DNA from: Pseudonocardia alni
Lineage (GTDB): Bacteria > Actinomycetota > Actinomycetes > Mycobacteriales > Pseudonocardiaceae
Assembly: GCF_002813375.1 (NCBI RefSeq)
Contig: NZ_PHUJ01000003.1
Location: forward strand, 62,001-126,000
Direction: 5' to 3'
DNA: 64,000 nucleotides
Shown: one piece after another, positions 9,097 through 35,545 of the stretch
Layout of the letters: each line of letters opens with the position of its first letter
Position numbering within the stretch: the stretch's first letter is position 1
The notes under the pieces: model-generated
The model's database searches: none
Told to the model about the DNA's origin: nothing
What the model saw: the letters and a program-made list of their open reading frames with translations, nothing else
Position numbers and translations under genes: made by a program

Positions 9097-9218
9097 GTCG
9101 CCGACACGATCGGGGTGTCCGATTGGGGCGAGGACGGCAACACGGTCACGTTCGGTACATCATCAACGGGCGCCCTGGGATCGGGAAGGCGCAGCACGGC
9201 GGCAATGGAGGGGCGGAC

Positions 9219-11684
9219 ATGGCGCGGCTCAGCACCATCCTGGATCAGATCGACTCGGGGTCGATGCTGCTCCCGGAGTTCCAGCGCGGCTACGTGTGGA
9301 ACAAGGACCAGATCCGCGGCCTCATGCGGTCGCTCTACAAGGGCTTCCCCGTCGGCGCGCTGCTCGTCTGGGAGGCGGAGGGGCACCAGCAGGCAGTCCG
9401 TGGCGCGGAGGCCGGCAGCGGCACCAAGCAACTCCTCCTCGACGGTCAGCAGCGGATCACCACGCTCTACGGCATCATCCGCGGGCGCCCACCCGCGTTC
9501 TTCGAGGGTGACCCGGCGATTTTCACCCGGCTCTACTTCAACGTGGAGACCGAGGCCTTCCAGTTCCTCGCTCCGTCCACCGCGCGGGCCGACCTGCTGT
9601 GGGTGGACGTCACCGGCCTCTTCAACGCCGACCAGGCCAAGAAGTACGACCAGCTGATCGACGAGCAGTGGATGCGCCCGAACCTCGGCGTGTACCTGTC
9701 CCGGCTGCTGCAGCTCGAGAGCATCCTCGAGCGAGACTTCTTCGTCGACCGGATCACCGGTGCGGACAAGACGGTGGACGTCGTCGTCGACATCTTCAAC
9801 CGGGTCAACTCGGGTGGCACGAGGCTGTCCAAGGGCGACCTGGCGCTCGCGCGGATCTGCGCGGAGTGGGGCGACGCCCGTCCGTCGATGCGCCGGGTGC
9901 TGGAGGGCTGGCGGGCGCGGCAGTTCACGTTCTCGCTGGACTGGCTGCTGCGCAACGTCAACGCGGTGGCCACGGGAAGGGCGCCCTTCGCCGCGTTGGA
10001 GGGGGTGTCCGCGGACGAGTTCCGTACGGCGCTCGACCACGCGTCGCAGAACATCGAGCACTTCCTCGGCCTCGTCGGTGGGCGGCTGGGCATCGACCAC
10101 GACCGCGTGATCAGCAGTGGCCGCTACGCGTTCCCGATCGTCACCCGGCTGCTCCACAACGGACAGGGCCGGTTCGCGGACGGTGCGGAGGCGGACAAGG
10201 CTCTCTACTGGTTCGTCCATGCCGCCCTGCGCGGCCGGTTCGCGGGCTCCGCCGAGACCGCGCTGGCTAAGGACCTCGACATCGTCGACAGGTCCGGTGT
10301 GGATGGACTGATCACTGCGCTCGAACGCTCCCGTCGGGGCGGCCTGACCGTCGAGCCGCAGGATCTCGAGGGGGTCGGCCGCGGGGCGCGCGCCTACGCG
10401 TTGCTCTACATGCTCACCCGGGTCAGCGGTGGGCGGGACCTCGGAACCGGCGGCCTGCTCGACGGCGAGAGCGGCGAGCTGCGGGTGCACGAGATTTTCC
10501 CGAAGGACGCTCTTTACCGGCACGGCTACTCCCGGTCCGAGGCGAACGCCGTCGGGAACCTGGCCTTTGCGGTGCCCGGCACCGCGACCACCTTGAATCG
10601 TCGCAGCCCCCACGAGTACCTGATGTTCTGCTCGGCGGAGGCGTTGGCGAGCCAGTGGATCCCGGCCGACCCCGAGCTGTGGCGCGTCGAGAACTATCGC
10701 GCCTTCCTCGACGCCCGTCGCAAGCTGGTTGCGGCGGATGCGAACGCGTTCCTCGGGCGCCTCGTCGGCGCCGAGGTCGCGTGGACAGAGGGCTTGCCGC
10801 AGGTACGGGTCGCCGAGGACACCGACGAGCGGGACGCCCGCGCGGTGCAGATCCGCGACCTGCTCACCGAGCTGGGGGCGGCCGGGTACGCGAACCCGGC
10901 GTTGGATGCGGAGATCGCCGACCCCGAGACGAGCCGGGCGCTGGCCGTGGCGGAGGCGTACTGGCCCGAGGGACTGCAGGCCGGGCAGGGCTCGCCCGTG
11001 GTGCTGGAGCTGGACCCGGACGAGGCGGACCTGCCCCGGCTCGCCGAGCTGGGCTTCGAGGTCTTCACCTCGGTCGACGCTCTGCGCGGCTTCGTCCAGC
11101 GCCGCAACGAGATTGCGGCGGGGGATCGGGACGACGAGGGCACGGGCGCCCCCGGCGTCGCACTCGTGGAACCCGCACCCGAGGCCGAGCCCGTCGTAGG
11201 CCCGGCTCGGCAGTTGGAGCTCATCGAACCCGAGGTCGCGCAGCTCGAGCTCCCGGAGGTCGAGCAACAGGCTCCCGCGGAGACGCCCGCGGCTGCGGCC
11301 ACGCCGGAGCCCGCTGCCCCGGTCCACGTTCCCGCGCCGAGCGTCGAGCCGGAGCCCGTCGTCGCGCCGGAGACCACGCAGGCCGAGGCCCTTCTGGAAG
11401 CGCGCCTCGTCGAGGTGCTCGATGTCTGCAAGGGCGAGCTGAAGCACAACCCGCGACTGTTCGTGGGGCTGCTCGTCGAATACGGCCCGGTCGACGCGGT
11501 GCGTCGGGCTCTCCGGAAGCCCGCCAACGACACGTTCTCGTTCCTCTGGGAGCGCAGGCGGCTCGATCTCAGCGTCGAGGCCGTCATGCTGGACGAGCGC
11601 TTCCACGACCTGTTCACTGACGAGGAGCGGGCCACGGCGCGCGCTCGGCTGGGGGAGTTCGACTACGAGGCCGCCCGGGCTTGA
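9219..11684 (+). CDS. DUF262-family (GmrS/ParB-like) protein
   Basis: An 821-residue protein. The N-terminal third is a DUF262 domain: LPEFQRGYVWNKDQI (about 19-33), the LLDGQQRITTLYG nucleotide-site signature (about 74) and FNRVNSGGTRLSKGDLALA (about 192). This domain is found in modification-dependent nucleases such as GmrSD and in phosphorothioate sensors. No HNH/DUF1524 nuclease motif is visible, so cutting may be supplied by the upstream helicase-nuclease. A Pro/Ala/Glu-rich linker (about 650-720) leads to a C-terminal helical domain. ATG 9219 is chosen because GGAGGGG precedes it. The 3' end overlaps the converging sigma-factor gene by 22 bases. The family is firm; the function is inferred. 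Confidence 0.8.
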   Translation: MARLSTILDQIDSGSMLLPEFQRGYVWNKDQIRGLMRSLYKGFPVGALLVWEAEGHQQAVRGAEAGSGTKQLLLDGQQRITTLYGIIRGRPPAFFEGDPAIFTRLYFNVETEAFQFLAPSTARADLLWVDVTGLFNADQAKKYDQLIDEQWMRPNLGVYLSRLLQLESILERDFFVDRITGADKTVDVVVDIFNRVNSGGTRLSKGDLALARICAEWGDARPSMRRVLEGWRARQFTFSLDWLLRNVNAVATGRAPFAALEGVSADEFRTALDHASQNIEHFLGLVGGRLGIDHDRVISSGRYAFPIVTRLLHNGQGRFADGAEADKALYWFVHAALRGRFAGSAETALAKDLDIVDRSGVDGLITALERSRRGGLTVEPQDLEGVGRGARAYALLYMLTRVSGGRDLGTGGLLDGESGELRVHEIFPKDALYRHGYSRSEANAVGNLAFAVPGTATTLNRRSPHEYLMFCSAEALASQWIPADPELWRVENYRAFLDARRKLVAADANAFLGRLVGAEVAWTEGLPQVRVAEDTDERDARAVQIRDLLTELGAAGYANPALDAEIADPETSRALAVAEAYWPEGLQAGQGSPVVLELDPDEADLPRLAELGFEVFTSVDALRGFVQRRNEIAAGDRDDEGTGAPGVALVEPAPEAEPVVGPARQLELIEPEVAQLELPEVEQQAPAETPAAAATPEPAAPVHVPAPSVEPEPVVAPETTQAEALLEARLVEVLDVCKGELKHNPRLFVGLLVEYGPVDAVRRALRKPANDTFSFLWERRRLDLSVEAVMLDERFHDLFTDEERATARARLGEFDYEAARA

Positions 11685-12934
11685 CGACGGCGGGCCGCAC
11701 GCAGCTCGGTTTCCAGCTTCCCGAGTGCCTTGCTCTGGATCTGTCGGATGCGCTCGCGGGTCACCCCGAGCTCGCCGCCGATGGTGTCCAACGTCGAGGC
11801 GTCGCCGACGAACCCGAAGCGACGATCGATGATCGTTCGCTCGCGCTCGGACAGGATCGAGAGGGCGGCTGCGATGTCCTCGGCGTCGAATCCCCGCAGG
11901 TCCGGGGCGGGTGGGTCGAGGTGGCGTTCTGCGACGCCCTGCAGGCTCTCCTCACCGAGGGCGTTCTGTGCACTCTCGTACGGCACCGTCGTCGGCAGCG
12001 TGGCGGCCAGCTCGGCCGTGGCGGGATCGTCGTCCGGGTGGGCGCGGCGAGCGAAGGTGTTCAGGCGCTCGACGATGTGTACCGGGTAACGGATGGTGCG
12101 CGACTGGTCGGCGATGGCGCGGGTGATGGCCTGCCGGATCCACCAGGTCGCATACGTCGAGAACTTCGTGCCCTGGGCGATGTCGAACTTCTGCACGGCC
12201 CTGATCAGGCCGAGAGCGCCCTCCTGTACGAGGTCGAGGGCGTCCAGACCCGGAGCTCCGTACCCGCTCGCGATGGAGAGCACGAGTCGGAGGTTGGCCG
12301 TGACGAAACGCTGGTACGCGCCCTCGCCGGCCGCGATCAGCAACCGCAGCGGGAGAGCGGCCGGTGTTGTCTCATCGCTGTTCTCGAGGCGTTCGGCGGC
12401 GAGGAGACCGACCTCGATCGCCCGCGCCAGCGCGACCTCCTCGGCCGCGTCGAGCAGCCCTGCGCGGCCGGTCTCCTGCCGGTACCGCCAGAACGAGTCC
12501 GTGGCCTCCGCGTCCTCGTCGAGGTCCGGGACAGACTCGTCCGGCTCCTCGGTGGCCTCGACCACCGGGGGCGCCGGCAGCCGCTCGACGGGCGGATCCC
12601 ACACCGCTGCTCGGGGGAGGGGGACCCCGTCCCGTGTGGCAACCAGCCCGAGGTCGGCCAGTGAGATCGAGTCGAGATCGAGGGTCGTGTGCTCCGAGAA
12701 CGCCTCAGCCAAAGCCGCCGGGACCGGGACCGAGGCGACCAACGGACGGAGCGGCCTCGGTACCCGGGCACCGTCGTCGACGAGCCGCCGGAGGAGGACG
12801 GCCAAGTCGGCCTCGCTCAGCCCGTGGTCGCGCGCCACCGTCGAGATCGCCACGACCGTGAGCTCACGGGCCCGGAGCGCGCCGTGCGCGAGGTCGACCG
12901 CGCCCGGGACGGGGGCGGATCCGGCGAGGGGCAT
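11663..12934 (-). CDS. RpoD-like sigma-70 family factor inside the helicase operon
   Basis: A 423-residue protein. An unusual N-terminal extension (1-125) and acidic linker (about 125-150) precede recognisable sigma regions: 1.2-like (RQETGRAGLLDAAEEVALAR), region 2 from FVTANLRLVLSIA (about 208) through DLVQEGALGLIRAV to TYATWWIRQAITRAI (about 258), a short region 3, and region 4 from LSERERTIIDRRFG (about 358) with the HTH LGVTRERIRQIQSKAL. These follow primary/HrdB-type sigma factors closely. The start lies 3 bases after the stop of the YprA-helicase gene, so the two are co-transcribed and probably translationally linked. It may direct RNA polymerase to the island's promoters or to invader DNA; both are inferences. 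Confidence 0.85.
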   Translation of the reverse strand: MPLAGSAPVPGAVDLAHGALRARELTVVAISTVARDHGLSEADLAVLLRRLVDDGARVPRPLRPLVASVPVPAALAEAFSEHTTLDLDSISLADLGLVATRDGVPLPRAAVWDPPVERLPAPPVVEATEEPDESVPDLDEDAEATDSFWRYRQETGRAGLLDAAEEVALARAIEVGLLAAERLENSDETTPAALPLRLLIAAGEGAYQRFVTANLRLVLSIASGYGAPGLDALDLVQEGALGLIRAVQKFDIAQGTKFSTYATWWIRQAITRAIADQSRTIRYPVHIVERLNTFARRAHPDDDPATAELAATLPTTVPYESAQNALGEESLQGVAERHLDPPAPDLRGFDAEDIAAALSILSERERTIIDRRFGFVGDASTLDTIGGELGVTRERIRQIQSKALGKLETELRAARRRQARAAS

Positions 12935-17662: not shown

Positions 17663-20515
17663 TCAGGCACGGTGGGCGTGCCAGTGGGAGACGAGGTACT
17701 CGGCCAGGGCGAGGTCGGAGGCGGCCGTGCCGGGGTCGGCGGCGACGACGGCGAGCCAGGCGACACGCAGGCCGGGCTCGGCCTCCGCCGCGTCCGGGTC
17801 CCCGTGCGCGGCGAGCCGGGCGACGATCGCGAATCCGAGCGAGACCTCCCGTGGGGAGGAGGCTCCGGGTGCGCGCACGTGCGTGAGCACCGAGAACAGC
17901 TCGCCGAACGCTGAGGCGTGCGCGAACGCGCGCAGCTCGTCCAGACCGGTGAGCGCGGTGGTGGCGGCAGGAGATGGAGCGTCCGTCACGTCGAGAAGCG
18001 GCTGCGGGGGCACGGGCCCGTCCCACCGTCGCTCGCCGGTCAGGATGTCCAACCCCGCGGGACTGGCATATCGTTCCGCGGCGTCGAGGAGCAGGGCCTC
18101 CTCCGTGCTCAGCTCAGCGGGAGACCAGTCCACGGCTCCGCTGCGGTAGGGCAGCAGCGGCGAGGTGAGGAGCAGCGACAGCAGGGGGCTGCTCTCCCAG
18201 AGCAGCGTGATCGTCTCGGGCCGGTCGACCCGGGCGAACCGGTGGGCGGCGAGCCCGGAGCGGACCAGGATGGGCACGGTTCGGTGCGCGGGCATCGCCG
18301 TACGGGCCCCGGCGACCAGCGCGGCGTACGGACGCTCGCCGAGGACCGCGGCGCACTCCTGGGTGACGAGCGCTCGGCTGCCCGCGTCGGTCGCGGGTCC
18401 GCCTGCGTCCGCGGCCGCCCAGAGGAGGCGGTAGGCGGCGATCCCGGTGGGCGGGGGCGCCTGGCCGGCCAGGTAAGCAGCCGCCTGGAATTCCACTCCG
18501 GACAGGGCGGTCGGCACCCGGTTCGGGTCGCCGATGCGGAAGGACCGGTCTGTCCGGCTGGCGAGGTGGGGTGCGCCAACCCGGACGTCCAGCAGCCCAC
18601 CGTGGACATAACCCGGGCCGAGCGGCACGGCGGACTCGCCGGGCGCGACGGTGACCTCCCACGGCCGGAGCCATGGCGTGAGCGGCGACGTCACCCGCAC
18701 GACGAGCTCCGGTGCGGGGTCCCGGTCGACCAGACGCAGCTCGTCGCCGCGGCGGAGCACCGCCTCGGCCACGGCGGAACCGCGGATCCGGGCGACCTGC
18801 GCGGTGAAGCCGTCGCCGAGCACGAGCGAGAGCGCGAGGCTGCCGTCGGAGCGCACAGAGTCGAGCAGCTCGGCGAGCCGGTACCGGTACACGCCGTCGG
18901 CCACTCGGGCTCCGCGGACCAGCTGGTCACGGCCGCCCGCGGGATCGGTGGCGACCAGCGCGGGGACGTGACCGAGCGCCTCGCGGAGGCGGGCGGGCAG
19001 CTGCACGTCGAGGCATGCGCCGTGGGCAAGGTCGTCGAGGGTGAAGGCCTCGGGCCGGACGCCCCAGACTCCGTTCTCGCCCGCCACCCGGCGCCGCAGC
19101 GCGCAGTGGGGGAGTTCGACCACGGCGTCCAGGCGGTGCGTCGAGTCCGCGGCACGGATCGTCACCGACGTCCGCATCTCGATCGACTTCAGCGACACGA
19201 CGGAGGGGACCAGCACCCCGGCAGGGGCGCTGAGCCTGACGTCGGCGGAGGTGAGTCCGCCGCTCTCACGAAGCAGCCGCAGCCGGCGCTTCGTCGTCAG
19301 CGTGACGCCCTGGGCGAGGGTTACCGATGCCCGCACCGGCGAATGCCCCGGCGCCGAGGCGGCGACACGGAACCGCCCCACCAACGGCCCCGTCGACCCG
19401 TCCGCGAGTGAGACGACGGCACCACCGAAGGCGGTCCACCGCCGGGGGAGCGCCGCGCCGTCGCGGAGCAGCTCGACGGTCCAGGTCTGGCTCGCGCCTC
19501 CGGGCAGACGGAGCCGCGGGGGCTCCCCGTGGACCGGCTCGCCGTCCGGCCCCAGGAGCCCCTCGATGGGTTCGCCGAGCAGCAGGTCGGCTCGTTCGGT
19601 GCTCTGCACCGGCCGCCAAGGACCCGGCGGCGGCCCGAAGTCCACCGCCGAGCGGATGGCAGCCGCGCCGGCGAGCGACACCCGCGCGAGCCACCACCGG
19701 GACCACCCGACGGGCGGCGTCGCGTGCTCCAGGACCTGCCAGGTCCCGTCGACCGCGTCCGCCGTGGGGGTACCGAGGTGGAGAACCCAGACCTCGCCTG
19801 CGGGTAGGGCGGCACCGGCGGGCAGCCGGGATCCTGTCTCGTCGAAAATGATGAGCGGGTCCGTGATGTCGACGACGTCGACGACGTGGACGCCACTGAG
19901 CACGTCCGTGCAGGTTGCGATCCGCGAAGGCCGCGCCAGCAGGAACCCGTTACCGGCGCGAGGACACTCGCCCCCGCCCACCAGGACGGAAGCCCCGTGG
20001 CGTTCGTCGGGGAAGGCGACGACGAGTGCACCTCGTTCGAGATCGAGCCGCAGGAGTGGCGCAGCCACCACCGACCCGACGGCGCCGCTGGCCCGCACAG
20101 CAGCGGTCAGGCCCGGTGAGTGAATGTGGCCTCGCAGTTCCGGGTGCATGGCCCATGCGTGAGCCCATCCTGCGAGCCAACCGGTCGCCGGACCGCCGAG
20201 CACCGCCGCCAGGGAGGCCGTGAGATCCTCAGCGCGCCGGGCCAGCCACGCCGTCGCGATGAGGGTGCAGGCGGGCCACTTGGCGAAGACCGTGCCAGGA
20301 TCGGAATCGGGCGCCTCGCGGAGACGGAGCCGCTCGTACGCCGCGAGCGCTTGGAGGAGAAGCTCACGGCGGTGGGCTTCGCCCGGGTCGGGATCGGCGC
20401 CGATCGCGTCGACGAGATCCCCGTCGTACAGGCGCTCTGAGTCGTCGAGCAGATCACGAGGCCGAACGGACGCGGACGTGGGCGGTTCGTCATCACGGAG
20501 CGTCGGCAGCCTCAT
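17663..20515 (-). CDS. Unrecognised 950-residue operon partner of the YprA helicase
   Basis: I do not recognise this family. The 950-residue protein has no signal peptide, membrane span, Walker motif, Cys cluster or clear nuclease triad. The first 100 residues are helical (LLLQALAAYERLRL). The middle (about 150-650) is rich in beta strands and reads like tandem beta-sandwich modules. The last 300 are helical. I chose ATG 20515 because GCGAGGGGGA precedes it; longer in-frame starts up to 20725 would overlap the EVE-like gene. It follows the EVE-like gene by 23 bases and precedes the helicase by 18, so it is an operon member. A large scaffold or DNA/protein-recognition role, as in other helicase-based defence operons, is speculation. 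Confidence 0.75.
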   Translation of the reverse strand: MRLPTLRDDEPPTSASVRPRDLLDDSERLYDGDLVDAIGADPDPGEAHRRELLLQALAAYERLRLREAPDSDPGTVFAKWPACTLIATAWLARRAEDLTASLAAVLGGPATGWLAGWAHAWAMHPELRGHIHSPGLTAAVRASGAVGSVVAAPLLRLDLERGALVVAFPDERHGASVLVGGGECPRAGNGFLLARPSRIATCTDVLSGVHVVDVVDITDPLIIFDETGSRLPAGAALPAGEVWVLHLGTPTADAVDGTWQVLEHATPPVGWSRWWLARVSLAGAAAIRSAVDFGPPPGPWRPVQSTERADLLLGEPIEGLLGPDGEPVHGEPPRLRLPGGASQTWTVELLRDGAALPRRWTAFGGAVVSLADGSTGPLVGRFRVAASAPGHSPVRASVTLAQGVTLTTKRRLRLLRESGGLTSADVRLSAPAGVLVPSVVSLKSIEMRTSVTIRAADSTHRLDAVVELPHCALRRRVAGENGVWGVRPEAFTLDDLAHGACLDVQLPARLREALGHVPALVATDPAGGRDQLVRGARVADGVYRYRLAELLDSVRSDGSLALSLVLGDGFTAQVARIRGSAVAEAVLRRGDELRLVDRDPAPELVVRVTSPLTPWLRPWEVTVAPGESAVPLGPGYVHGGLLDVRVGAPHLASRTDRSFRIGDPNRVPTALSGVEFQAAAYLAGQAPPPTGIAAYRLLWAAADAGGPATDAGSRALVTQECAAVLGERPYAALVAGARTAMPAHRTVPILVRSGLAAHRFARVDRPETITLLWESSPLLSLLLTSPLLPYRSGAVDWSPAELSTEEALLLDAAERYASPAGLDILTGERRWDGPVPPQPLLDVTDAPSPAATTALTGLDELRAFAHASAFGELFSVLTHVRAPGASSPREVSLGFAIVARLAAHGDPDAAEAEPGLRVAWLAVVAADPGTAASDLALAEYLVSHWHAHRA

Positions 20516-20538
20516 GCCCGTCCCCCTCGCCCTTACCC

Positions 20539-21009
20539 CTACCGCGCCACGCATGATCGATCCAGCGCGGACGCGCGGCGGAGTGTGATCGTTCCACCCC
20601 TGCGGGTGACGGTGTTGCGCAGGGGCCATACGAGAACGGCGAGCCCTCGACGAGGGACCGCGTCCCACTGTTGTGCGCTGAGCCGAACTGGCTCCGAGGG
20701 CGAGAGCCCCGACCATCGACGCCACGGGACGTCGGGGACCTCACGGACTGGGTTCGGCCACTCGAACCGCGTGACGATGTCGGACCGGCAGGCTTAGGCA
20801 CCGACGGGACTCCACAAGGGCCGCGGCTCCGAACGAACCGAGAGGATCCCGAGAATGCTCTCCCGCCCGGGGCTATACAGCAGGGCGAGATCACCGACGC
20901 GGGTGCTCGGCTCGGAACACCACTCGCCTGCGGGCAGCGAGGCGCTCCGCGGTCGCTCCCCGCCCTGATAGCCGGGGGCGGGAGTGATCCAGTGCCAGCG
21001 GGTGGTCAT
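20539..21009 (-). pseudogene. EVE/PUA-like protein interrupted by one in-frame TAA
   Basis: Read through its single internal stop (TAA at 20794-20796, codon 72), this frame gives 156 residues that look like an EVE (PUA-fold) domain. It has WCSEPSTRVGDLALLYSPG near 30-48, then SVRSEP. After the stop come ACRSDIVTRFEWPNPV and WRRWSGLSPSEPVRLSAQQW, matching the 'ACDYRV-F-P' half of EVE domains. No further stop occurs until TAG 20541. EVE domains bind modified cytosines. The start ATG 21009 overlaps the stop of the DUF4352-type gene (TGATG). It could be a recent nonsense mutation or a sequencing error; the second half has no start of its own. Confidence 0.65.
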
Positions 21010-22023: not shown

Positions 22024-22212
22024 TCAGGCGGAGACGAACACGTTCTCCCGGTGCCGGACGAAGTAGGCGGCGTTCTCCGGGCGATGGGCGCTGCACTTCC
22101 TGCCGCGCAGCGGCTGCAACCTGTCGATCTGCTGCCAGAGGAGTCGCGCCAGGTCCGTGTCGTCGGCCCGCCATGATCGACGGACATCGCTCCTCAGCGG
22201 CTGCGGGCTCAC
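22024..22212 (-). CDS. Small 62-residue ORF coupled to the UvrD-like gene
   Basis: A GTG at 22212 overlaps the TGA of the UvrD-like gene (GTGA), the same junction type used at other places in this operon. The 62-residue product has no Cys motif or membrane segment. Its C-terminal half (LLWQQIDRLQPLRGRKCSAH followed by RPENAAYFVRHRENVFVSA) has protein-like composition. No family recognised. The overlap and composition are the only evidence; it could be a small accessory or antitoxin-like protein. Confidence 0.45.
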   Translation of the reverse strand: MSPQPLRSDVRRSWRADDTDLARLLWQQIDRLQPLRGRKCSAHRPENAAYFVRHRENVFVSA

Positions 22213-24413
22213 GTCCGGCCACTCGACGACCGTTGGATCACCGACAGTTCGTCGCGGGCTCGGGTGGCGGCGACGTAGATCAGGGAGCGGGTGCGGAGTT
22301 CGGCATCGTGGCGGCCGGACTCGTCGAGGACGGCAAGGCGGGCGGTTTCAGCGGCAGTGCGTTGCCCGACGTCCGCGAGGACGACCTTGATGAACTCCAT
22401 GCCCTTGGCCCGGTGCATGGTCATGACCAGCGGCTTTCCCGCGGTCGGCTGCTCGCGGTCCACGGCGCGGACCGGGACGCCGCGTTCGGCGAGGCCGGTG
22501 ACCACGCGTTCGCGCTGGAAGCGGTCCTGGACCAGGACCGCGATGGTCTCGGGGGCCTCGCCGGCCTCGAGCCAGCCTGTCAACCGGGCGGCGATCGTGT
22601 CGAGCTCGCCGGTCAGTGAGGTGACCGGCTCGATCCGCGGGTTCGGGCCGGAGCGGGCCGACCGGTAGCCCGTCGCCTCAGGTTCCTCCTCTAGGTCCAC
22701 ATAGGAACCGCCGTCGAGGATCGAGAGCGCGTAGTGCAGGTTCTGGGCGGTCGTGCGGTAGTTGAGTGTGAGCCGCCGGGAGCGGCCGACGATCTTGATG
22801 CCGTAGTGGCTCAGCACAGTCCGCGGGCCGTAGATGCGCTGGTGGGAGTCCTCCGCGATGAACAGATCGTCCGTGCCGTCGGCCGCGAGGGCGCGGAGCA
22901 GCTGCCAGTGGGCGGGGGAGAGGTCCTGGCCCTCGTCGACCAGGACGTGGTCGGCGAGCGGGCCGGTCTCTCGCAACCGCGCGGCGGCGACGGCGGCGGC
23001 CTCGCCGAAGTCCAACGTCCCGTCGATGCGGTTCTGGGCTCGGTAGGCGGAGATCAACGCCCACACGGCGGCGCGCTTGCCCCGGTCGAGTGCGACGCCG
23101 CGGCCGGGGCGCCGGACGCGGAGGTACTCGGCCTCGGTGCGCACGGCGTGCGGCAGGACGATCAGCGCGTACTCGGTGGCCAGGAACGTCTCGTTGGCGA
23201 TCTCGGGCGGCAGGTCGGTGCCCGCCGTGTCGAGGACGGCCCGCCAGCGGGTGCCGGGGACGCGGCCGTTCGGGCTCGACCGCTCCTCACCCAGCACCGA
23301 CTGCACGGCCTTCGCCACGTCGACGCCGCGGATCACCGCGGCGGCGAGAGCATCGACGCCCGCGACGAACACACCGGGATCGCCGAGCTTCGCGGCCTGT
23401 GGCACCCGCGGGTCGAGCTGCGCCAGGCTTTCGCGGAGAGCGTCGGCAAGGTTCGTGGTGAACGTCGTCAGAACGATGCGGGCCTGCGGGTTCTGCCGAG
23501 CCAGCCGCCGCGCGCGGTGGACGAGCACGACCGTCTTGCCGGTCCCCGCGCCGCCGGACAGCCGGAACGGCCCGTTGTAGTCCTTCGTGACGTAGGTGCG
23601 CTGCTCGGGATGCAGGAACACCCGCCACGCGCCGAAGTCCCCGTCCTCGATGACCCGACGCAGCTCGTCCTGGTCGTCGATGAAGGCGAACTGCGCGGCG
23701 GCGGCCGGCTTGCGGAGTGAGACGAGGAGCTGGTCGTCCTCGGTGCCGGTCGTCGGCGCCGGGTCGTCCAACTGGAGCTTGTCGTGGATCTCGTCGATCG
23801 AGTCCGTGCTGGTCAGGTCAACGAGTAGGAGCCCAATCCAGCCCTCGTGCCGCTGTGCGAGGGCGAGGACGGCGTCCTCATCCGGCGCGGCGAGGGCCGC
23901 GTCGGCGATCTCCTCGGGCAGGCCGAGCCGGTCAACGAGCGCGGTCCGCGTCCGCCCGCGCCGGGCCAGCAGCGGCTTATCGACGACCGGTTCGCCCGCC
24001 TGCACGACGGCCTCCGGTTCGGCGACAACAGTGGCGCCCGGCTCCGGCACCGTCGGTTCGGGCACGGCGGGTGTGTCCGTCCCTGCGGGCGTCTCCTCGA
24101 TCTGCGGTAGCCCGTTGATCGGGTTGACCTTCAGCCGGACGCGTTCGGCGACCTTGTTCGCCTCGTCGTGTGGCCAGACGCCGTGAATGACGTAGTGCCG
24201 CTCCCCGTCGCCGTCGAGGCGGAACATGACCGCGCGCCAGAAATCGTCGACCCGGCCGGTGCGCACCCGCGGGTCCGCGGACCCCTGGATCGGCTCGACG
24301 TGCAGCCCCGGGACGGTGTCGTCCGCCGACAGCTTCTGCAGGAAGGCCATCGCCTTCGATCGCACCGAGCCGTCGAGCTTCTTCGGCCATTTAGTCATGA
24401 TGAGCGTGGGCAC
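22209..24413 (-). CDS. RelE-like domain fused to a UvrD-type helicase
   Basis: A 734-residue protein. Residues 1-100 look like a RelE/ParE-fold domain (AMAFLQKLSADD; GRVDDFWRAVMFRLDGDGE; YVIHGVWPHDEANKVAERVR). A Pro/Glu linker precedes an SF1A UvrD core: Walker A LSGGAGTGKTVVLVHRARRL (about 284), VLVDEGQDLSPAHWQLL (about 486), TMHRAKGMEFIKVVLADV (about 655) and the last motif YVAATRARDEL. Similar RelE-UvrD fusions occur in other actinobacteria and proteobacteria; their role is not settled. GTG 24413 directly follows the upstream stop and has GGGGAGG in front. It is the fourth gene of set B. Confidence 0.85.
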   Translation of the reverse strand: MPTLIMTKWPKKLDGSVRSKAMAFLQKLSADDTVPGLHVEPIQGSADPRVRTGRVDDFWRAVMFRLDGDGERHYVIHGVWPHDEANKVAERVRLKVNPINGLPQIEETPAGTDTPAVPEPTVPEPGATVVAEPEAVVQAGEPVVDKPLLARRGRTRTALVDRLGLPEEIADAALAAPDEDAVLALAQRHEGWIGLLLVDLTSTDSIDEIHDKLQLDDPAPTTGTEDDQLLVSLRKPAAAAQFAFIDDQDELRRVIEDGDFGAWRVFLHPEQRTYVTKDYNGPFRLSGGAGTGKTVVLVHRARRLARQNPQARIVLTTFTTNLADALRESLAQLDPRVPQAAKLGDPGVFVAGVDALAAAVIRGVDVAKAVQSVLGEERSSPNGRVPGTRWRAVLDTAGTDLPPEIANETFLATEYALIVLPHAVRTEAEYLRVRRPGRGVALDRGKRAAVWALISAYRAQNRIDGTLDFGEAAAVAAARLRETGPLADHVLVDEGQDLSPAHWQLLRALAADGTDDLFIAEDSHQRIYGPRTVLSHYGIKIVGRSRRLTLNYRTTAQNLHYALSILDGGSYVDLEEEPEATGYRSARSGPNPRIEPVTSLTGELDTIAARLTGWLEAGEAPETIAVLVQDRFQRERVVTGLAERGVPVRAVDREQPTAGKPLVMTMHRAKGMEFIKVVLADVGQRTAAETARLAVLDESGRHDAELRTRSLIYVAATRARDELSVIQRSSSGRT

Positions 24414-27400
24414 TTACGCCTCCCCGGCCTTGCTGAGCTGCGCGATGATCTCCGCCGGATCGGGCGGGACGACGACCCAACCGGCTGCCGCCAGGTCCGT
24501 GCGGTCCTCGGCGGGCATGTCCTGGGTCTCGACGACGAGGTTCAGGCTCGGCCAGGCGACGTCGATCATGATCCCCTCAGGGCTCTCCCCGCCGATCGCG
24601 GGCGCCAGCGGGGCGCCCGCCGCGGCGAGGGCGAGCACGAGCTCACGCTCGGACCCTGGGCGCGCCTGATCGACCACCTGCGCCCAGTCTTCGGGAAGCT
24701 CCGGAGGATCGGCCACCGCTGAAATCGCGGGCGCAGTCACCGGGACGGCAACGGGCGTGGCTCCGAGCGTCGTCGTCGAGACGGCCGTCGGCCAGTCGCG
24801 CAGGGCGAGCGCGTTCGAGAGCTGCAGCCACTCCCGCCACGAGTCGCCGTGCGCGGAGTCCAGCACCTCGGGGCGGTCGTCGAGGACGAGTGCGGTGCCG
24901 ACGAGCGGGCCGTCCAGCTCGATGGCGACCGCACAGGACCCGGAACGCCAGACCATCGCCTTGCGTGGACCTGAGGACGCCGCGTCCGTGCCCAACAGCA
25001 CCCTCCGGGCTGCCTCGGAGAGCTCGGCCTCCGCCGGGAGCAGGACGACCGTGGTCTGGGCCAGCAGAAACATCGGCACCGCCCGCGCCACCGACCGAAC
25101 GTGCACCGGCTCGGGGGAGGACACCCAGCCGAGCAGCCAGTCGACCGGGCCCGAGCGCAGCGCCTGGTAGGCGGCGGGCGAGGCCATGAACTGCACGTTC
25201 GCCATGAGCTGTCCGACGGGGGCGTCCGAGTACCAGGCCGGTGCGGTCACAGAGCACTCTTCCGCCGCGACCACGTCCCGCGCCGACACCGAGACCACCA
25301 CCCGCCCGGTGTCCCGCAGGATCTGCCGCTTGGCGGCGTCGTCGGCGAGCCGGTTGTGCGTCACCGTCGCGTGGAACGTGAGCCCGTCGGTGAAGATCGC
25401 GACCGCGGGCACCGAGGCGTCGTTGGTCTCCAGCACGAAGTCCGGGCGCGAGTTTTCGACGTTCACCTGCGGCGTCAGCGTCCACTGCCGCGGCTGCCCC
25501 GGGATCGTGAACCGCACGGAGTTGCCGAACGGGCCGGGGACTTCTTGGGTCGCTGCGCCGATCTTCTTGAGCCGCTCCACGAACACCTTCCGGAAGCGCT
25601 GTTCGAGGTGGGACTCGGGGTCCTCGGCCGGCGGGACCTCCGTGATCGTCCAAGCCGGCACGTCTTCGAGGCTGGAATCGTCAGGCCGGAACCCGAGCAG
25701 CGTGCGCAGGTGCCGTTCCGCCGACGCCCGGGATGCCCGTCGGACCTGGCCGGGCGCGACGAACGGGAGCAGGCAGCGGTGGCAGGCCAGACGAGGCTCG
25801 GTGCGGCACCCGCAGTCCCGCACCCGCTCCCACGCCGTCGCCAGCAGCGATCGCAGCACGTCAGACTGGACGAGCTCCGCCAGGTAGCCGGTCCCACCGG
25901 GGACTGCGTCGTGCAGCAGGATCGCCTCGTGGTTGTCCGAGCCGTCGCTGAGCGTCGGGTCGACGACATGCTCCACCCGGATGTGGTCGGGATGCCCGCC
26001 CAGCTGCTCCCGCAGCCCGAGCAGCAGCGCGGCGGCCAGGCTGGGCGCGGCGAAGTCGTCCCCGATGGTCACCGCGCTGGGTAGCCGCAGCAGCAGGCCC
26101 TGCGTCCGTAGCGTCCGGGAGAGCGCGACGGTGGTGGTGTGCTCGTCCGTCGAGGTTCGGTGCCGACACCACGGCCGGTGCTCGTGGGCCTTGTTCTGGC
26201 CCGCGTCCGTGTCCAGCTTCCCGCAGCCCTCGCACACCCGGAACAGCGCGCCGGAGATGTCCTCTCCGGCGATCGTCCGAGTGGCGCCGTGCCCGGCGGT
26301 GCCGAGGTTGACCCAGCGGATCGTCAGCGCTTTCAGATACGTGCAGCCGAGCCCCACGTCCTCGGCGAACCATCGGTCTCCGAAGTCCGCCGGGTCCACG
26401 TCCGCCGCCGTGACGACCTGGAAGTAGCGGTTGTCCCGCTGATCGCGCCGGTCGGTGATCGTCGCCTCGTCGCGGCGGATCTCCGCGGTGACGTGCGCCA
26501 GCTCGACGACCCCGAGCCGCTGCCCCATGTCGCCGACCCCGCTGCTCCCGCACCGCGGGCACGTCGGCACAGACTTGGTCTTGCCCTCCGCGTCGACGTC
26601 CACGGCGTAGCCGCAGGCCGGGCAGAACACCCACGGCCGGATCGCCACCCCGTCCACCCCGAGGTCGACGGCGTCGATGGTGATCTCCAGCCCTCGCGCG
26701 TAGAAGCGGGCGCCGGGCGCGAACTCCCGGATGGCCTGCGCGGAGCCGCGCTGGATCCGGGCGTGGTCGGTCTGGAACTCCTTCGAGTCCGGGTTCATCC
26801 AGCTCAGCCCGACGTCGAGGGTGACGTTGTCGTCCAGCAAGGTGTAGTTGGGCAGCAGGCCGTACTCCTCGAGCACCCCGATCCAGTACTCGCCCTGCAG
26901 GTGCGCGAGCTGCCCGGAGGTCAGCTTCCGCGCGGTCTCGGCGGAGCGTTGGGCACGGCGGTCGTCCTCGGTGGCGGCGGTGGACTGGGCCTGTGCGATG
27001 AGGGTGGGCAGGGCGTCGTCGATCGCCTGCTGCCGGTGCTTCAGCTCCTCGACGGTGCTCTGCCAGCGGCCGCTCGCGGCGTGCACCTGGGCGGCGAACG
27101 CGCTGGTCCCGGGCCCGCCGGGCACGGCCAGCCACGCCCGGAGGCCACCGACGACATCGTCGGACAGCGCGCTGAACACGCCGAGGAAGCGGTCGAGATG
27201 GGCCGACGCGTGGGTCTCGGCGTGGCTGATCAGGTCGCCGAGGAACGTGCCGGGCTGGCTGGAGCCGATGGCGCTGCGGGCGCGACGCGGGTGGGGTCGG
27301 GTCTCGTCGCGGGCGAACTCGTCCGCGAGGTGCGCGGTGTACTGGCGGCGCAGGATCTCCTCGGCGCGCAGGTAGGTCGCGGGCGGCCGGACCTCGCCGT

Positions 27401-30400
27401 TGATCACCGAGAGCGGGTCGCCGAGCTTGGGCAGCTGCTCACCGCGCCCGGTGATGAACGCGAGGTTGAGCGCGTTGCCGGTGAGCCGGCCCGCGCGGCC
27501 GACGCGCTGCAGGTAGGAGGCGACGGTGCGGGGGAGCGAGGCCAGGACGACGGCGGAGAGGTCGCCGATGTCGATGCCCATCTCCAACGTCGGCGTGGCG
27601 ACGAGGACGTTCGGCGCGGCCGGGCTGTCCTGCGCGCCCTTGAACCCGTTCTCGTAGGCAAGCCGGACCTCGTCCTCCAGCAGGCTCGTGTGCTCCCGCG
27701 CGACGACCCGCCGCATGTCCGGGGAGGCGTAGAGCCGCTGGTAGAAGTTCTCCGCGAGTGGGCTCGCCTGCAGCCGTCCGGTGCAGCTCACGAGCATGCA
27801 CGGGGCGCCGGTGAGCTGCGTGACGGTGGTCGTCGAGCCGGTGACCGGGGCCCGGCAGGTGCCGCAGACCAGCAGGTTCCGGCCTGCGGCGAGGTCCGCC
27901 GCGGACGTCGGGCTGACGACGACGCCGCCCGCCGGGATGGCGAACACCGCGGCCCCGGAGGTGCTGGTGATCGAGGTGAGCACGCCGTCGCGGGTCAGCT
28001 GTTCGAGCAGCAGCCGGGCCAGCCGGCCGCCGTCGGTGGGGCTGACGTCGAGCACCCGGGAGGTCCACTGCGCGTACCAGGACTTGGGCGGGGTGACCGG
28101 CTCCAGGCCCTCGCCCGCGGGGTCCCCGCTCCCGCCGATTCGGGGGTAGCCGGGTGCCGGGCGGCCCTTGGGGAAGGTGGGCATGCCTTCGGAACGGGGA
28201 GGCCGGCCGCCGGTGACGAACCAGCGGTTGCCGTCCTCCTGGCGGTAGCGCTCGAACCACGGGTGCTCGATGGCGCCGAGCGACCGCATCCGGTCCAGCA
28301 GCCCGCGCACCCACTGCAGCAGCTCGTCGTCCGGCTGTTCGCCGTCCGCGGTGTCCGATCGGGTCTGGACGGCGACGCCGGACAGCACCTTCCGCGCCGC
28401 AGCGATCATCTTGGGCGGCTGCCCGGCCTCGACGCCGACGGCCGCGGAGCCGGTGAGCTCCAGGGTGCGGCCGGTGCGTGAGTTGAGCCCGAACTCCAGC
28501 ATCGCGTCCAGCGCGAGCCGCTTCTGCACCCGCGACCGCACGGCGATCGGGATCTGACGGTACTTCTCGGCCGTCCAGAACGGGGTGAACGATTCGCGAT
28601 CCGCGCAGTCCGGCGCGAGGAGGCGGTAGCGGGCCGAGGCCTTGTCTCCTGCGCTGCGCATGACCTCGTCGACCAGACCGTCCAGCGTGAGCGGCCCGTC
28701 CGCGACGGCCTCGCGCAGCACCGCGCGCAGGGTCAGGGTGTGCGAGCGGGCCTGCACGAACCCGGCGCGGTGCGCGGCGTCCTGCACGGAGTCGGTGAAG
28801 ACCAGCGCCTTCTTCTCCCCGGGGGCCACCCGCGCGGACCCGAACAGGGTGGACAGGGACACGGACAGCAGCGTCGCGATCGCGCTGCCCAGGAACCGGA
28901 TCCCGTCTTCCTGCCCGCAGGCGGGGCAGGTGTCCTTGCGGGAGTCCTCGTCCGCCTCCTGCCCGGCGTGGGTGAGCACGGGCAGCACCCAGCCGTCGCG
29001 CAGGTCGGGATCGTCCTCGGCCGGGGTGGCGGTGAGCAGCTCACGGGTGCGGACCGAGAACCAGGCCAGTCCCGACGCGGGCGCCTCACCTCCGAACACG
29101 GCGTCGGCTTCCGTGGCCGCGGACATGAGCGGCCGGAAGCGGCCTTCGCGGCTGGCGTGGTCGCGGCGGATGGAGTCGTCGTTCACGGCGAGGCTGCCGC
29201 CGACCGGCGCCAGCCCGATGCCCCAGCCGGACCGCCCGCACCGCCGGCAGTACAGCGCGGGGAACGACGGCCGGACGTCCTCGGCGTCGTGCACCCCAGT
29301 CGGCGGGCCGTCGTCTCCCCACCGGAACACGGCGGTCGGGTCCGCCGCGCGGTCGATGCGGGTCAGCTCGCGCACCCACAGGTGCGCCTCGACGGACAGC
29401 GCGTCTCGCCCCATCGCGGCCCGGACGTGCCCGAGCGCGGCGACGACGCGGGACAGCAGGCTCTCCCACGCCGGGTCGCGCCCGGTCGCGGCGAGGCTCG
29501 GCGTCGCGGTCGGCCCCACGACCCGCTCGACGAGTGCGCTCAGACTGAGTGCGTCCCCGGACTCGCGCGCCATGGCCGCGACGAGGGGATGGGCCTGACT
29601 CAGCCGCAGCAGCAGGTCCGCGTCCGCGGTGGCGAAGTCGCCGGGCTGCTTGCCGTAGAGCAGCGCGAACACATCCCGCGCGAGCTCGGCGCCGTCGGGA
29701 TCCTCGCCGAGCAGGTCGAGCGCGGTGTTGATCTCGGCGACACGCAGCTCGGAGATCGGGGTGGGGGGGTAGCCCATCGCGCCGACCACCGCGGTCGAGT
29801 CTTCGGCCCACTCGTCCTGGGTGAGCCGCGACTCCGTGACCACCGCGTCCGGCCCGAACGGCTCCCCGAACACGGTCTCGGCGAACCCGAGCATGACGTC
29901 GGGATCGCCCTTGTCTCCCAATGTCGCGGAGGTGGCGACGGGCGTGATCCGGCCGAGCGGCCGCGCCCGGTCCGCATCGGATAGTCGGGGGTCGGTGTCG
30001 CTCCAGTAGCTCTTGAGCGTCATCCCGAGCCGCCGCAGCAGCATCGCGACATCCGTGCCTTGCGCGCCGTCGTAGGTGTGGAACTCGTCGAGGACGAGGT
30101 AGCGCAGGCTCGTCGCGGACGCGCGCCAGATGTTGCGGTCCGCGTGCCGCAGCAGGAGCTGGTCGAGCATCTTGTAGTTGGTGAGCAGGATGTCCGGCGG
30201 CTCGTCCTGGATGATCCCGCGGTCGGTGATCAGTCCGTCCTCGGTGACCATCGTGCGGGGCGCGTCCTTCTGCCCGGTGTAGAGCGCGGCGGTGACCGAG
30301 CGCAGCGCCGAGTTCTGGGTGATGAAGCTGGTGAGGCGGGCGGCCTGGTCGTTGGCCAGGGCGTTCATCGGGTAGAGGATCAGCGCCTTCGTCCCGGTCA

Positions 30401-30788
30401 CGCCCTCGCGCTTCGCCCGCAGCACGTGGTCGAGGAGTGGGTAGAGGAACGCCTCCGTCTTGCCGGACCCGGTTCCGGTGGTGACGAGCGTGGGCAGTGG
30501 TCTGTCGTTGACGAGCGAGGAGAGCCGCGCGAACGCCGCCGCCTGATGCCCGTACGGCGTGTGCCCCTCGTACCACTCCAGGCTCTGCCGCCAGCCCTTG
30601 TCGGCGGGCCGGAAGGGCAGCCGCAGTCGCACGTACGGCCCCTTGAACATCCCGGACTCGGGATCGCCGAGGAAGCGATCGAGGGCGTCGCGCGCGCCGG
30701 GATCGGTGAGTCCGAACGTCGTGGTCAGGTAGTCGACCAGGCTGTGCCGGATGCTCCCGGCCTGGATCGTTGGAAGGAGCTCACTCAT
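24414..30788 (-). CDS. Giant YprA/DUF1998 helicase with PD-(D/E)XK-like domain
   Basis: A 2124-residue SF2 helicase. Walker [18 protein letters not shown] (about 100), [17 protein letters not shown], and motif II as [20 protein letters not shown] (about 232), with DEFH instead of DEAH. The second lobe has [20 protein letters not shown] and [13 protein letters not shown] (about 1090). The DUF1998 zinc residues [18 protein letters not shown] are at about 1660. After the usual helicase end come [25 protein letters not shown] and [14 protein letters not shown] (about 1725-1800), which resemble a DUF559/Vsr-like nuclease, then 280 more residues. The size and single-chain layout recall Druantia DruE; DISARM splits this into DrmA and DrmB. 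Its ATG overlaps the methyltransferase stop (ATGA). Confidence 0.85.
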
Positions 30789-33700
30789 GAACGCTCCGCA
30801 AGCCGCCGCTCGAACTCCGCATACGCGACCCGCATGTCGTGCTCACGGTCGAGAGTCTGGAAGGGGAGTTCGTAGACGTAGGTGTTGCCCGCCTGGTTCG
30901 TAGCGGTGCGCTCCTCCTCGGAGATCCGCTCGCCCTTCTTGCGCCAGACAGTGAGCACGGAGTTCGGGACCAAACGGCCGTTCGCGTCGTAGAAGTACGT
31001 GTTGCGGTCGTAGCCGTAGAGCACCGCGAACTGGGTGCGATAGATGGTGCACAGCTCGTCGGCGGTGAGGCCGAGCATCAGCGCAACAAGGGCATCGATC
31101 TCGACAAGCGCTTGGCGACGATCTGAGGCGATCCGCAGCGGTGAGTCGGGCGTCCAGGACTCCTCGAAGTCGGACAGTCGCGGGCGACTCGGGTATTCAA
31201 TGCCGCCGCTCCACTTACTTACTCGTGGAAGTTGTGAAACAGACTCTTCCCAGATGTCGGCGTAGGCGGACGTCACGCAGTTTAGACGGAGCGCGCGAAT
31301 GCATAGCTCGGCCGTCAGGTAGACGTTGCGAGCGTAAGGAATCCGATTGATGATGCTCTTGGGTAGACTAGATTTCGGTGCGGCGCGTACAAATAGATCG
31401 GCTACCAGGCTGCTGAGCCAGCCAGTCGCCTCGACTAGAGCTATTCGCGGTCCGCCTGGAAATCCAGCGGAGTACACGCTCTGCGTCAGGTGCATGGCCC
31501 CCGGGGGGATCAGTGCTGGCGCTAGCGTTCGCTCGCCGGTTGGTGCCGCCATGCTTCGCCAGGCGACCCGATAGAATGAGGCTGTAGGATTTCGGGAACC
31601 TCCGATCTCCCAGTTTGGGTATGCAGGAAGTAGCTCGCTAAGGTTCCGTGCGATTTTGTAGATCGTCTCTGGCAAGAATTCTGTCGGGATCGACTCAAGA
31701 TCCGTCTCTTGCCAGTCTTGATTGTGGAGCATGCTTGCGTTCGGTCGCTTGTACATCGGATTTGAAACGTAAAGATGGGGTCCCTGAAGAATTGCCGTGC
31801 GCCACGAGTGGGGTGCTCCCCATTCGGCTTCCAGGAGGCCCTTCTTGCGTGCGGCTGTCTCGTCCCAGCCAAGCGAGAACTGCAGCCCTAGGTCCTTGAT
31901 TCGTGTGCGCTGGGAGATCTTGTCGAGCACGTCTGCGGTTGTGCGGTTCACTGTGTACAGCATTCGTGTGTGTCGAACGGGCGTATCAGGACTTTCCAGT
32001 GCCTCGTGCCATGTCTCTAGCATCCTCTCGGTCACCTGGGTTATTCGTCCCTTGTGTGGCCGAAGATCCCACTTTCCGGCCTCATTCTTCATGCCCGGCT
32101 CTGCGCCGCAGCCATCGTGGATGAGCGATCGGGTGGCGGTATCCGGGTGATACAGCCAGCACGCCTGCAAGAATGCAGGCGCGGCGTTTCGTTGCCCGTG
32201 GATGGTGACGCCGAACATCTTCTCGTCTTTGATCTCGAACAGATTTAGCTTGTTCTGAAAATGCCAATGGCGACGAAGGCGGAGATAGATCTCCGACCGA
32301 TAGTGCCCTGCCTTTTCGTCCGTAAAGTGTGACTCAAGATGGATCATGCCAATTGTGCCACACGACGAGTTGTGCTGCCACATCTTCTCCATGAAGCATC
32401 TATAGAGGTCAGGACGTAGGCCAGCCAGGTGTGGAAACTGGGCTAACGAGCCGACGAACTCGGCCATGGCGGCCGTTTCGGTGGTTCCGTTGATAACGAC
32501 GTCAGCTACTCCACCAAGCGCCAGTGTTTCCTCGCGTTTTGCCGCAATTGTGGATTGGCTGGGCCTCGTGGACAGCTTCCACCATGGGTCAGCCTCGGCC
32601 ATCAAGGCGTCAACGTCGACGTCTGGTCGAACCCATGGTGGGTTTCCTGCCTGCAAATCGAAGCCGCCACGCGTGGCAAATACCGTGGCGAAGTCGAGGT
32701 TCCAGTGGAAGAAGCCTTGCTGCTGCGAGACTCGCTCGCACACCACCAACCACGGATGCTCAATCAGCAGCGCCTTGATCGGGCGGGCGCCGGCGAAGTC
32801 CAGGGCCAGCTCTTCAGTCTCGCCCAGCTCCTCCCAGCTCGTCGCCTCACCCAACGAGATCTGGCCGGCCGTCTTCACAGCCTTCTTTGTGTGCTCCTTG
32901 CCGAACTCCGGATTGCGGCCGAGCAGAGCCTGCAGCCCCGCGACCCACTGGTCCACAGTGGGCGGTTCGGCTCGAACCCCGTCGACCGTCACGGCGGCGT
33001 CGGTGAGGGGCCAGAACCACAGTGCGGTCCAGGCGTCCATGACCCGCCGCAACCGCCGGTAGGCGCCGGACTCGTCCTCCAGCGACTGCTCGATCTCCTC
33101 GCGCGTCACCTCACCGCCCGCGGGGAGCGAGCCTGCGCCCCAGACCGGAATGGACCGGCGGATCTGCTGCTCGGCGATGTGCAGGCGTCGGTAGCTGATC
33201 TGCCACAACGCCTCCACACGGTTCGCCAGCTCCGCCAGGGCCGCGACCTGCGCCTTGGACGGCTTGGTCTTCGTGGAGCCGCGCCAGGTCTTGAGCTTCT
33301 TCACCGCGTCCGGGACCAGGCTCGCGGCCTCCTTCGCATCGGCGGCCGCGCCCCAGCCGTCGGCAGGGAGGAGGAAGTGGTGGATGCCGTCGCCGAGGTC
33401 GGAGGCGATCCGGCCCGCCTCGATGTCCGTGGGCAGCGAGGTGATCGGGAGGTCGACAGGCACCGCGGAGAGCCAGCTCTTGTCGGCGACCTGGCTGCGC
33501 CGGTACACCGCGCGGCGGGCGCCGATGAGCGAGTTGCCGCGCTTGAGGTGCAGGCCGAACCACGGGGCGGAGAGTCCGGAGACCATGGTGTCCAGCCACA
33601 ACGAGATCTCGGCGAGCTCGACCGCGGTGGCGTTGAGGTCCACGCCGTAGACGTTGTGCAGGGCCAGGTATGCCTTGACCTCCTGCAACCGGCGTGGGTA

Positions 33701-35545
33701 TTCGTCCGGGTCGATGCGCTCGCCGAGTTCCTCCTGCCGGCGCTTGAGGTACTGCTCCGCGAGCTGCCGCACCGCTTCGATGGCGAATGCGCCCGAGCCC
33801 AGCGCGGGCTCGCACACCGTGAGGCCGAGGATCTCCTCGGCGCTGGTGCGCGAACCGTCCTGGTCGAGCAGCTCTTCGAGGGCCTGCCCGACGGTGAACC
33901 GGGTCAGCACCTCGGGGGTGTAGTAGGAGGCGGACTGCTGGCGCTCCCGGCCCGCGAGCCGGAACACGAACGACCCGGCCTGGTGCAGGACCGGCTTCTT
34001 CTCGCCCGTCCGCGGATCCTCGGCCTTCACGAAGTCCGCGGCGGCGATGCCCTCGGACCGGCTCACCGGTACGACCCACGAGCCCTTGCTGCTGTCCCCG
34101 CCCTTCGCGACCTCGTAGAGATCGGTCTCGGCGAAGAAGCCGGTGTAGGACATCAGGCCCTCGTACACCGCGCCGAGCTGGTTGATGCCGAGCTCGGCGT
34201 AGGAGATGAAGCCGCGGTCCTTTCCGCTGCGCTCCTTGCTCAACAGGAGATGCGCGAGCACCTTCTGCAGCGCCGCGTTCCCCAGCCCGACGGCGTCGAT
34301 GAACCGCGTGGCCTTGGGCAGGAAGAGGTCCGCGCGCAGGGCGTTGAAGTAAAGCCCGTCGGAGGGGCCGGCCCCGTCCTCGTCGTCGGCCTCGGACGTG
34401 ACCACCGCGGGCGCGTGCCCGGTGTCGACCAGCCCGAACAGCACCGCCAGCGACTCGTAGAGGTGCGTGCCCGCCTGCGCCCGTGGGGTGGCGAGCTCGA
34501 CCTGCACCAGCTCGCGGAGGCGGTCGAGGCTATAGCCGGCGTCGTACTCTGCGGCGCCCGCGGGCAGCACGCCCAGCTCGGGGGAGGCCTCGGCGTAGAG
34601 CAGGAACAGCACGCGGTAGAGGAACCGCAGGGACTGCTTGGCCAGCTCGTTGGCCTCCGCACCCGGCAGCGGGTCGAGACCCTGCGCCTTGCGCCGGGCC
34701 ACCACCTCGTTCGCGATGATCTCGATGGAGAGCCGCACGCCCTCGCGGAGGTCCTTGGACACCCCGACGGTGTGCTTGACCGACTTCTCGAGGGTCTCCA
34801 GCCACCAGAGCTTCCCGGCGGCGTCCGGCGCGACGGACTCGGCGGACAGGCAGGTCAGCGCGCGGTCGATCTCCCCGCCGCGCTTGGTCTCGTTGCGCTC
34901 GCAGATGAGCTGCAGGTCCACGGCGAGGTAGCGGCCCTCGGCCCAGCGCTCCTGCTCGGCGAGGATGATCCACCGCCCGGCCAGGATCAGGGCGAGGTCC
35001 GGGGCGGCGGACTCGTCGACGAACAGCGCCGACACCAGCCGCGCGGCGGACGTGAACTCCGGCCCGTCCTCCTCCAGCGCGAGCGGCTCCAGCAGCGTGG
35101 GCTGGTCCTTCGCCAGGGCGTCCTCGTGCGTGACGGCGGGGCGGGCGAGCACCACGGCCAGCGGCGCCCGCTCGGTGATGCCCGCCGCGGAGATCCGCCA
35201 CAGCGGCCCGGTCTCGACGACCTGCAGGCCGTGCTGGCGTAGCTCCAGGACCTGCACGATCTCCGTGTAGACCTCGCGGGTGGCCTTGGCGACGGTCTCG
35301 TCGTCCTGCATCACGGCGGACTCGCGGTCGGCGAGCTCGGCCAGCGCGGCGAGGTCGACCTCCAGCTTCTGCCGGACCTTCGTGAACCGGGTGCGCGGGG
35401 TGGGGCGGTCGGCCTTCTCCTCGGCGTCCCACGTCTTGCGCCGCGCCAGGACCTCGGCGTGGAACGACTGGGAGGCGGCCTCGGAGCTGAAGTAGTGCTC
35501 GGAGATCCAGCTCTCGCCGACGAGGATCGCGTCCGACCCGCTCAC
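30785..35545 (-). CDS. Eco57I/PglX-like N6-adenine DNA methyltransferase
   Basis: A 1586-residue class I methyltransferase. After a large N-terminal domain come the AdoMet motif [18 protein letters not shown] (about 575), [19 protein letters not shown] (about 632) and the catalytic motif [10 protein letters not shown] (about 965). The C-terminal third (about 990-1450) should hold target recognition; its DNA (about 31150-32600) has much lower GC than the rest. It starts at GTG 35545, whose GTGA overlaps the stop of the SNF2 gene. Together with that gene it resembles the DrmD-DrmMI pair of class 1 DISARM. It probably marks host DNA as self; no fused nuclease motif was found, so restriction likely comes from partners. 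Confidence 0.88.
31150..32600. other. Low-GC segment inside the methyltransferase specificity region
   Basis: Hand counts of 60-base blocks give 50% GC at 31741-31800 and 45% at 32221-32280, against 78% at 33301-33360 in the same gene. Codons ending in A/T become common here and fade back toward the gene ends. The reading frame stays open across the change. This is the signature of an imported target-recognition segment. Confidence 0.75.

Follow-up and report, generated by a model that had tools for sequence, protein, structure and literature searches.

What is the 950-residue protein that Pseudonocardia alni encodes immediately upstream of a YprA-family helicase? The sequence-only reading of the window (the whole stretch of 64,000 nucleotides analysed here) took it for an unrecognised protein with the size and place of a core recognition or scaffold subunit, one that may define a family of systems of its own. 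Our analysis indicates that it is probably (probability about 0.72) a DruH, part of an anti-phage system of the Druantia III-like (III-B) type whose genes stand in the order DruH-DruE-sigma. The three genes of this system are as follows.

17663..20515, - strand: DruH-like protein, 950 aa, short form without the HAGIP segment
12938..17644, - strand: DruE-type YprA helicase, 1568 aa, with DEAD, Helicase_C and MZB domains, several CxxC pairs and no C-terminal nuclease
11663..12934, - strand: 423-aa factor of the sigma-70 family; ~residues 11-67 form an N-terminal helical domain specific to the lineage, and the protein bears the motif LDLDSISLADLG

The target gene and its helicase neighbor

The target gene is real and lies on the - strand, which the sequence-only reading did not give. 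It runs from an ATG at 20515 to a stop codon at 17663-17665 and encodes 950 aa. The longest mechanical open reading frame begins further upstream, at a GTG at 20725, and would encode 1020 aa; this start was dropped. In the 950-aa version, alignments with homologues begin near residue 15, and GC by codon position resembles that of a gene only from 20515 onward (0.79/0.57/0.87, versus 0.71/0.71/0.69 in the 20515-20725 extension), so 20515, the start already chosen from the sequence, is the better one. The homologues in Pseudonocardiaceae are full-length at 37-44% identity, and their conservation is that of a coding gene.

Searches of Pfam (E<=1), NCBIfam (E<=0.1) and PADLOC (E<=0.1) with the target gave no match, in keeping with the earlier remark that it bears no known motif. 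The AlphaFold2 model has helices at residues 19-142, strands at ~154-660 and helices at 673-949, the same helical ends and beta-rich middle that had been read from the sequence, at a mean pLDDT of 45. Because the input consisted of two sequences alone (that of the window and that of Pseudonocardia asaccharolytica), the models are too poor for fold comparison. Relatives of the target were found on none of the plasmids searched, and viral contigs yielded no match when scanned with the target, the helicase, a long DruH and an alignment.

The helicase gene begins 18 bp downstream of the target on the same strand. Its product carries the motifs GTGSGKT (Walker A), DEAH, SAT and QRAGRAGR, matches the PADLOC models DruE1 (E=2e-185) and DruE3 (1.5e-175), and has the DEAD, Helicase_C and MZB/DUF1998 domains of a YprA-family DruE. 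The C-terminal PLD-type nuclease, a trait of Druantia III-A, is absent: in the clade described below DruE ends only 33-70 residues after its last CxxC pair, whereas the corresponding tail of E. coli DruE measures ~418 residues. In the III-like branch DruE is most often found without the nuclease, and the Druantia III-B/III-like systems of Bell et al. have such a helicase, as here (PMC12458937). With no nuclease domain in the DruE proteins of the clade, any cutting would have to come from DruH or from host enzymes.

The tight linkage to the helicase noted at this locus extends to its relatives. A longer sister family, mostly of 1083-1255 aa and 18-28% identical to the target, occurs across Mycobacteriales (in 17/258 genomes of one genus). 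A neighbor count, which had been proposed as a check, finds a DruE-like YprA helicase directly downstream of the DruH-like gene in 45 of 52 testable genes, each gene being counted once where the downstream flank was readable and truncated loci being left out. Seven DruH-like genes in two other genera have no YprA neighbor within ~1.4 kb (L092:10425-14063 in G704, L091:9539-13048 in G787, and those at L048, L049, L051, L053 and L055). The gene in G704, the one exception whose wider neighborhood was inspected, adjoins a chromosomal SMC gene.

Relationship to canonical DruH

Druantia III pairs DruE with DruH, and a recognition role for the target, as first suggested, fits what is published on it (PMC13192584, PMC13316683). 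E. coli DruH is reported to sense infection, to contain Ig-like and baseplate-J-like domains and to have a nuclease activity that depends on dimers (PMC13192584). In Mycobacterium smegmatis, a minor tail protein activates DruH-DruE, which blocks circularisation and replication of phage DNA (PMC13316683).

Is the actinobacterial family related to these proteins? It could instead have no kinship with them and simply occupy the position next to DruE, and three negative results speak for that reading: none of 25 scanned DruH-like family members matched the PADLOC DruH models (PDLC00038-50), single-sequence comparison between the family and canonical DruH gave no match, and a search with the family profile did not find PDB 9tud, the E. 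coli-type DruH. The PADLOC models do recover E. coli DruH at E=0, and the profile of the canonical set, which includes an E. coli DruH, finds the 9tud chain named DruH. Profile-profile comparison, however, aligns the family with nine canonical DruH at a score of 57.5 (E 3.8e-5; columns 445-643 versus 409-593). With the short clade excluded, the long family alone scores 44.7, whereas the best of 30 column-shuffled controls reaches 22.2 and the reversed profile 15.8. The N-terminal regions give another match, collinear with the first (score of 27.1, versus 11.7 when reversed), in which HAGIP of the actinobacterial proteins is aligned with the EGGLP motif of the E. coli protein. The hhalign probabilities of the family versus E. 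coli DruH are 7-71% across the two collinear matches. As both matches exceed their shuffled and reversed controls, the actinobacterial family is likely to be homologous, if remotely, to canonical DruH.

Other properties argue against an unrelated protein as well. Length class, gene order and the helix-beta-helix layout are common to both families. The DruH-like gene precedes DruE on the same strand, which is the placement of druH in Druantia III, and the layout of the low-pLDDT target model is that of the cryo-EM description of DruH; together with the remote collinear profile similarity, these are the features that the window has in common with the E. coli system (PMC13192584; 9tud). A fold search with the target returned tandem chains of the Fn3/Ig type almost exclusively, with no hit at E<=0.001, an outcome that agrees with the Ig-like domains and that we do not count as evidence. 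MSMEG_1253-1254 of M. smegmatis, adjacent actinobacterial genes for proteins of 1132 and then 1667 aa, have been published as DruH-DruE, and the former is close in size to our long sister family (PMC13316683). Mapping of the M. smegmatis DruH mutation sites onto the family places 6/14 at one offset, which is only weakly suggestive, chance being ~0.9% per sequence with 39 sequences tried.

Taken with these results, an unrelated protein in the place of DruH is quite improbable. The target is most likely a DruH, given the helicase directly downstream in most testable genes and the two-region collinear similarity to canonical DruH; the missing PADLOC match reflects a limit of the profiles, which are not what defines the family. 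The target is thus better read as a DruH that has diverged beyond the reach of existing profiles and belongs to a type of system already described than as an unrecognised protein that defines systems of a new family. A large family that escapes standard defence annotation is in this manner placed as actinobacterial DruH, and many Druantia III-like systems are therefore probably under-annotated.

The sigma-bearing clade and its possible working

Two features set the window system apart from the Druantia III systems compared here: a dedicated sigma factor and a shortened DruH. Neither is in the sequence-only reading, and they appear to be what is new at this locus.

The sigma gene starts 3 bp after the DruE stop in the window. 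A sigma-70 gene directly follows DruH-DruE in all eight clade members, from four genera of Pseudonocardiaceae (G000, G020, G033, G509, G812, G1170, G1100 and G1193; the P. asaccharolytica contig is NZ_AUII01000004.1), and where its start is clear it lies 3-7 bp past the DruE stop or overlaps DruE. At sister-clade loci with enough downstream sequence the sigma gene was found in 0/10. Helicases from sigma-bearing loci group together in the DruE tree as a single clade (support 99/100). The distribution of sigma requires one change on that tree, and 0/500 shuffles gave so low a number. The genomes are a sample, in which the sigma-bearing clade is known from Pseudonocardiaceae only.

The same clade has lost part of DruH. 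About 95 residues around the HAGIP/EGGLP motif are absent from 8/8 clade DruH proteins and kept in the sister proteins. The lost segment corresponds to E. coli DruH around L129-P139, and the part before EGGLP remains. In E. coli DruH the substitutions L129A, T131A/L132A and G136A/G137A abolish defence, and the patch 63-137 is essential (PMC13192584). The clade proteins thus have an incomplete counterpart of this N-terminal functional surface (E. coli residues 63-137), a surface whose necessity has been established for E. coli alone and which does not enter others' definitions of the family. Some of the residues that E. coli DruH cannot do without fall in the lost segment, so the mechanism may differ from that of E. 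coli. In the sample, sigma was gained on the branch on which the HAGIP segment was lost. The clade offers a natural experiment on DruH sensing, in which part of a surface essential in E. coli was deleted and, as far as the sampled genomes show, an obligate sigma factor was gained.

E. coli Druantia III keeps the EGGLP region of DruH and has no sigma factor, whereas the window system lacks the region and has the factor. The M. smegmatis genes overlap by 17 bp with no sigma reported (PMC13316683), unlike the 18-bp gap and the sigma gene of the window. For Druantia III-B the text consulted mentions no sigma factor (PMC12458937), whereas every member of our clade combines a shortened DruH with a sigma-70 gene after DruE; nor is such a factor mentioned in any of the papers searched that name Druantia along with ARMADA or helicases. 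The three-gene DruH-DruE-sigma clade with shortened DruH appears to be new.

The factor itself keeps housekeeping-type residues in regions 2.3-2.4 and 4.2, and its best relatives are HrdB/SigA. The SLADLG motif is conserved among the clade sigma factors. Their N-terminal domain is modeled as helices at a pLDDT of ~61-79 (AlphaFold2, two-sequence input) and is present once per genome in all eight, at the DruH-DruE-sigma locus only. Among 299 genomes of the order it occurs at comparable strength in two, both with DruH-DruE; the remaining eight matches are marginal (E 9e-5 to 9e-4).

How might the parts work together? All functions in what follows are inferred from the sequence comparisons and gene linkage. 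DruH would recognise a phage product, late structural proteins being reported for relatives, and would then license DruE, an ATP-driven 3'-5' helicase, on single-stranded parts of phage DNA, with the consequence that replication is blocked. Any cutting would be supplied by DruH, whose E. coli dimers nick DNA, or by host enzymes. The sigma factor would be an obligate third component. Most likely, it would keep the operon transcribed while the phage takes over host transcription; less likely, it would tie DruH-DruE to transcribed phage DNA. If sigma is functional in defence, a helicase-based immune system is linked with transcription.

It is possible, at somewhat under even odds, that the sigma factor is a regulator only, driving the defence operon or a small regulon while DruH-DruE work as in other Druantia III. 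The housekeeping-type residues, the kinship with HrdB/SigA and the position of the gene at the end of the operon, nearly abutting or overlapping DruE, all fit such a role, and there is a precedent in the sigma gene mzaA of the MZA defence system, although few MZA-like systems of another study have one (PMC9523054). MzaA is also the sole PADLOC match of the window sigma; the match covers the common sigma regions only, at 225 bits versus a curated cut-off of 800, and genes mzaB-E are lacking from the window operon, which is thus not an MZA system. A promoter scan upstream of DruH at the eight loci found no sigma-70-like consensus, which weighs against a regulator of the target gene, the expression role in the main reading included, and regulation alone explains neither the N-terminal domain peculiar to the clade nor its coincidence with the deletion in DruH.

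That coincidence would be accounted for if the factor were a targeting subunit: the holoenzyme that carries it would bring DruH-DruE to phage DNA under transcription or to open promoter complexes and so stand in for the surface that DruH has lost. Loss and gain on one branch, as far as sampled, and an N-terminal domain unique to the clade sigma factors are consistent with this role. One loss and one gain on one branch can also be coincidence, and the AlphaFold models are too poor to bear on contacts of sigma with DruH-DruE; we regard targeting as rather doubtful. The farther-reaching version, in which sigma has taken over recognition from the N-terminus of DruH and is an integral sensor or targeting subunit of a three-component Druantia, with the helicase acting on transcribed phage DNA or upon sigma hijack, is unlikely. 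If it were true, the immune system would be reading transcription itself.

Region 4 of sigma factors is a known target of phage anti-sigma proteins. The clade factor, with its housekeeping-like regions 2 and 4, could serve as a decoy or guard whose capture by such proteins, or by host-takeover proteins, triggers DruH-DruE. The conserved residues look functional, with no sign of lost binding to RNA polymerase or promoters, and a decoy is correspondingly improbable.

The surrounding defence island

On the - strand, in the direction of transcription, the target is preceded by genes for an SNF2 protein, a IIG/PglX-type methyltransferase, a 2124-aa YprA helicase, a UvrD/GajB-type protein and a small membrane protein, and is followed by DruE and the sigma-70 factor. 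The larger neighbors, together with a convergent gene beyond sigma, are listed here.

35542..38343, - strand: ArmA-like SNF2 helicase, ARMADA type II
30785..35722, - strand: ArmB-like (PglX/IIG type) methyltransferase, ARMADA II
24414..30788, - strand: ArmC-like YprA helicase, 2124 aa, ARMADA II
22209..24413, - strand: ArmD-like UvrD/GajB-type helicase, 734 aa, ARMADA II
9219..11684, + strand: GmrSD_N (PF03235) protein, 821 aa, convergent with the sigma gene

The first four reproduce, next to the target, the published ARMADA type II order of SNF2, PglX-like methyltransferase, YprA and GajB-like UvrD (PMC12458937). Druantia III has been reported with ARMADA II on the same islands, as here (PMC12458937), and an E. 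coli plasmid carries ARMADA II in this order next to Druantia III and Zorya II.

The small protein upstream of the target (21009-21749, - strand) is membrane-anchored and without a profile match. In P. asaccharolytica a 263-aa small protein ends ~20 bp before DruH, and both are DUF4352-like by eye.

The GmrSD_N protein is kept beside the operon in three Pseudonocardia loci, an association that is uncertain; more distant relatives lie near DruH-DruE in G011, G071 and G1100. A - strand reading frame at 9069-11606, considered as a fourth conserved operon gene, was rejected: codon-position GC and the GmrSD_N (PF03235) domain on the opposite strand identify it as an antisense artefact of that gene.

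The window holds further defence-related genes, all on the + strand. A type IV methyl-directed restriction enzyme (mREase_IV, E=1.4e-87) is encoded at 477-1466, within the same defence island. The gene at 4372-9096 encodes a 1574-aa AAA_11/AAA_12 helicase with a C-terminal MTES_1575 nuclease, which resembles PDC-S37, Mokosh and Hhe proteins and has a relative upstream of DruH at L093 in G779, from another family of the order. At 56894-59245 a 783-aa protein matches two components of the MADS defence system, mad3 (E=4e-67) and mad8. The 703-aa SNF2 protein at 39341-41452 matches one DrmD model (E=4e-187) as well as DpdE models, and its relatives, at 47-59%, are found near DruH-DruE loci in G011 and G1100.
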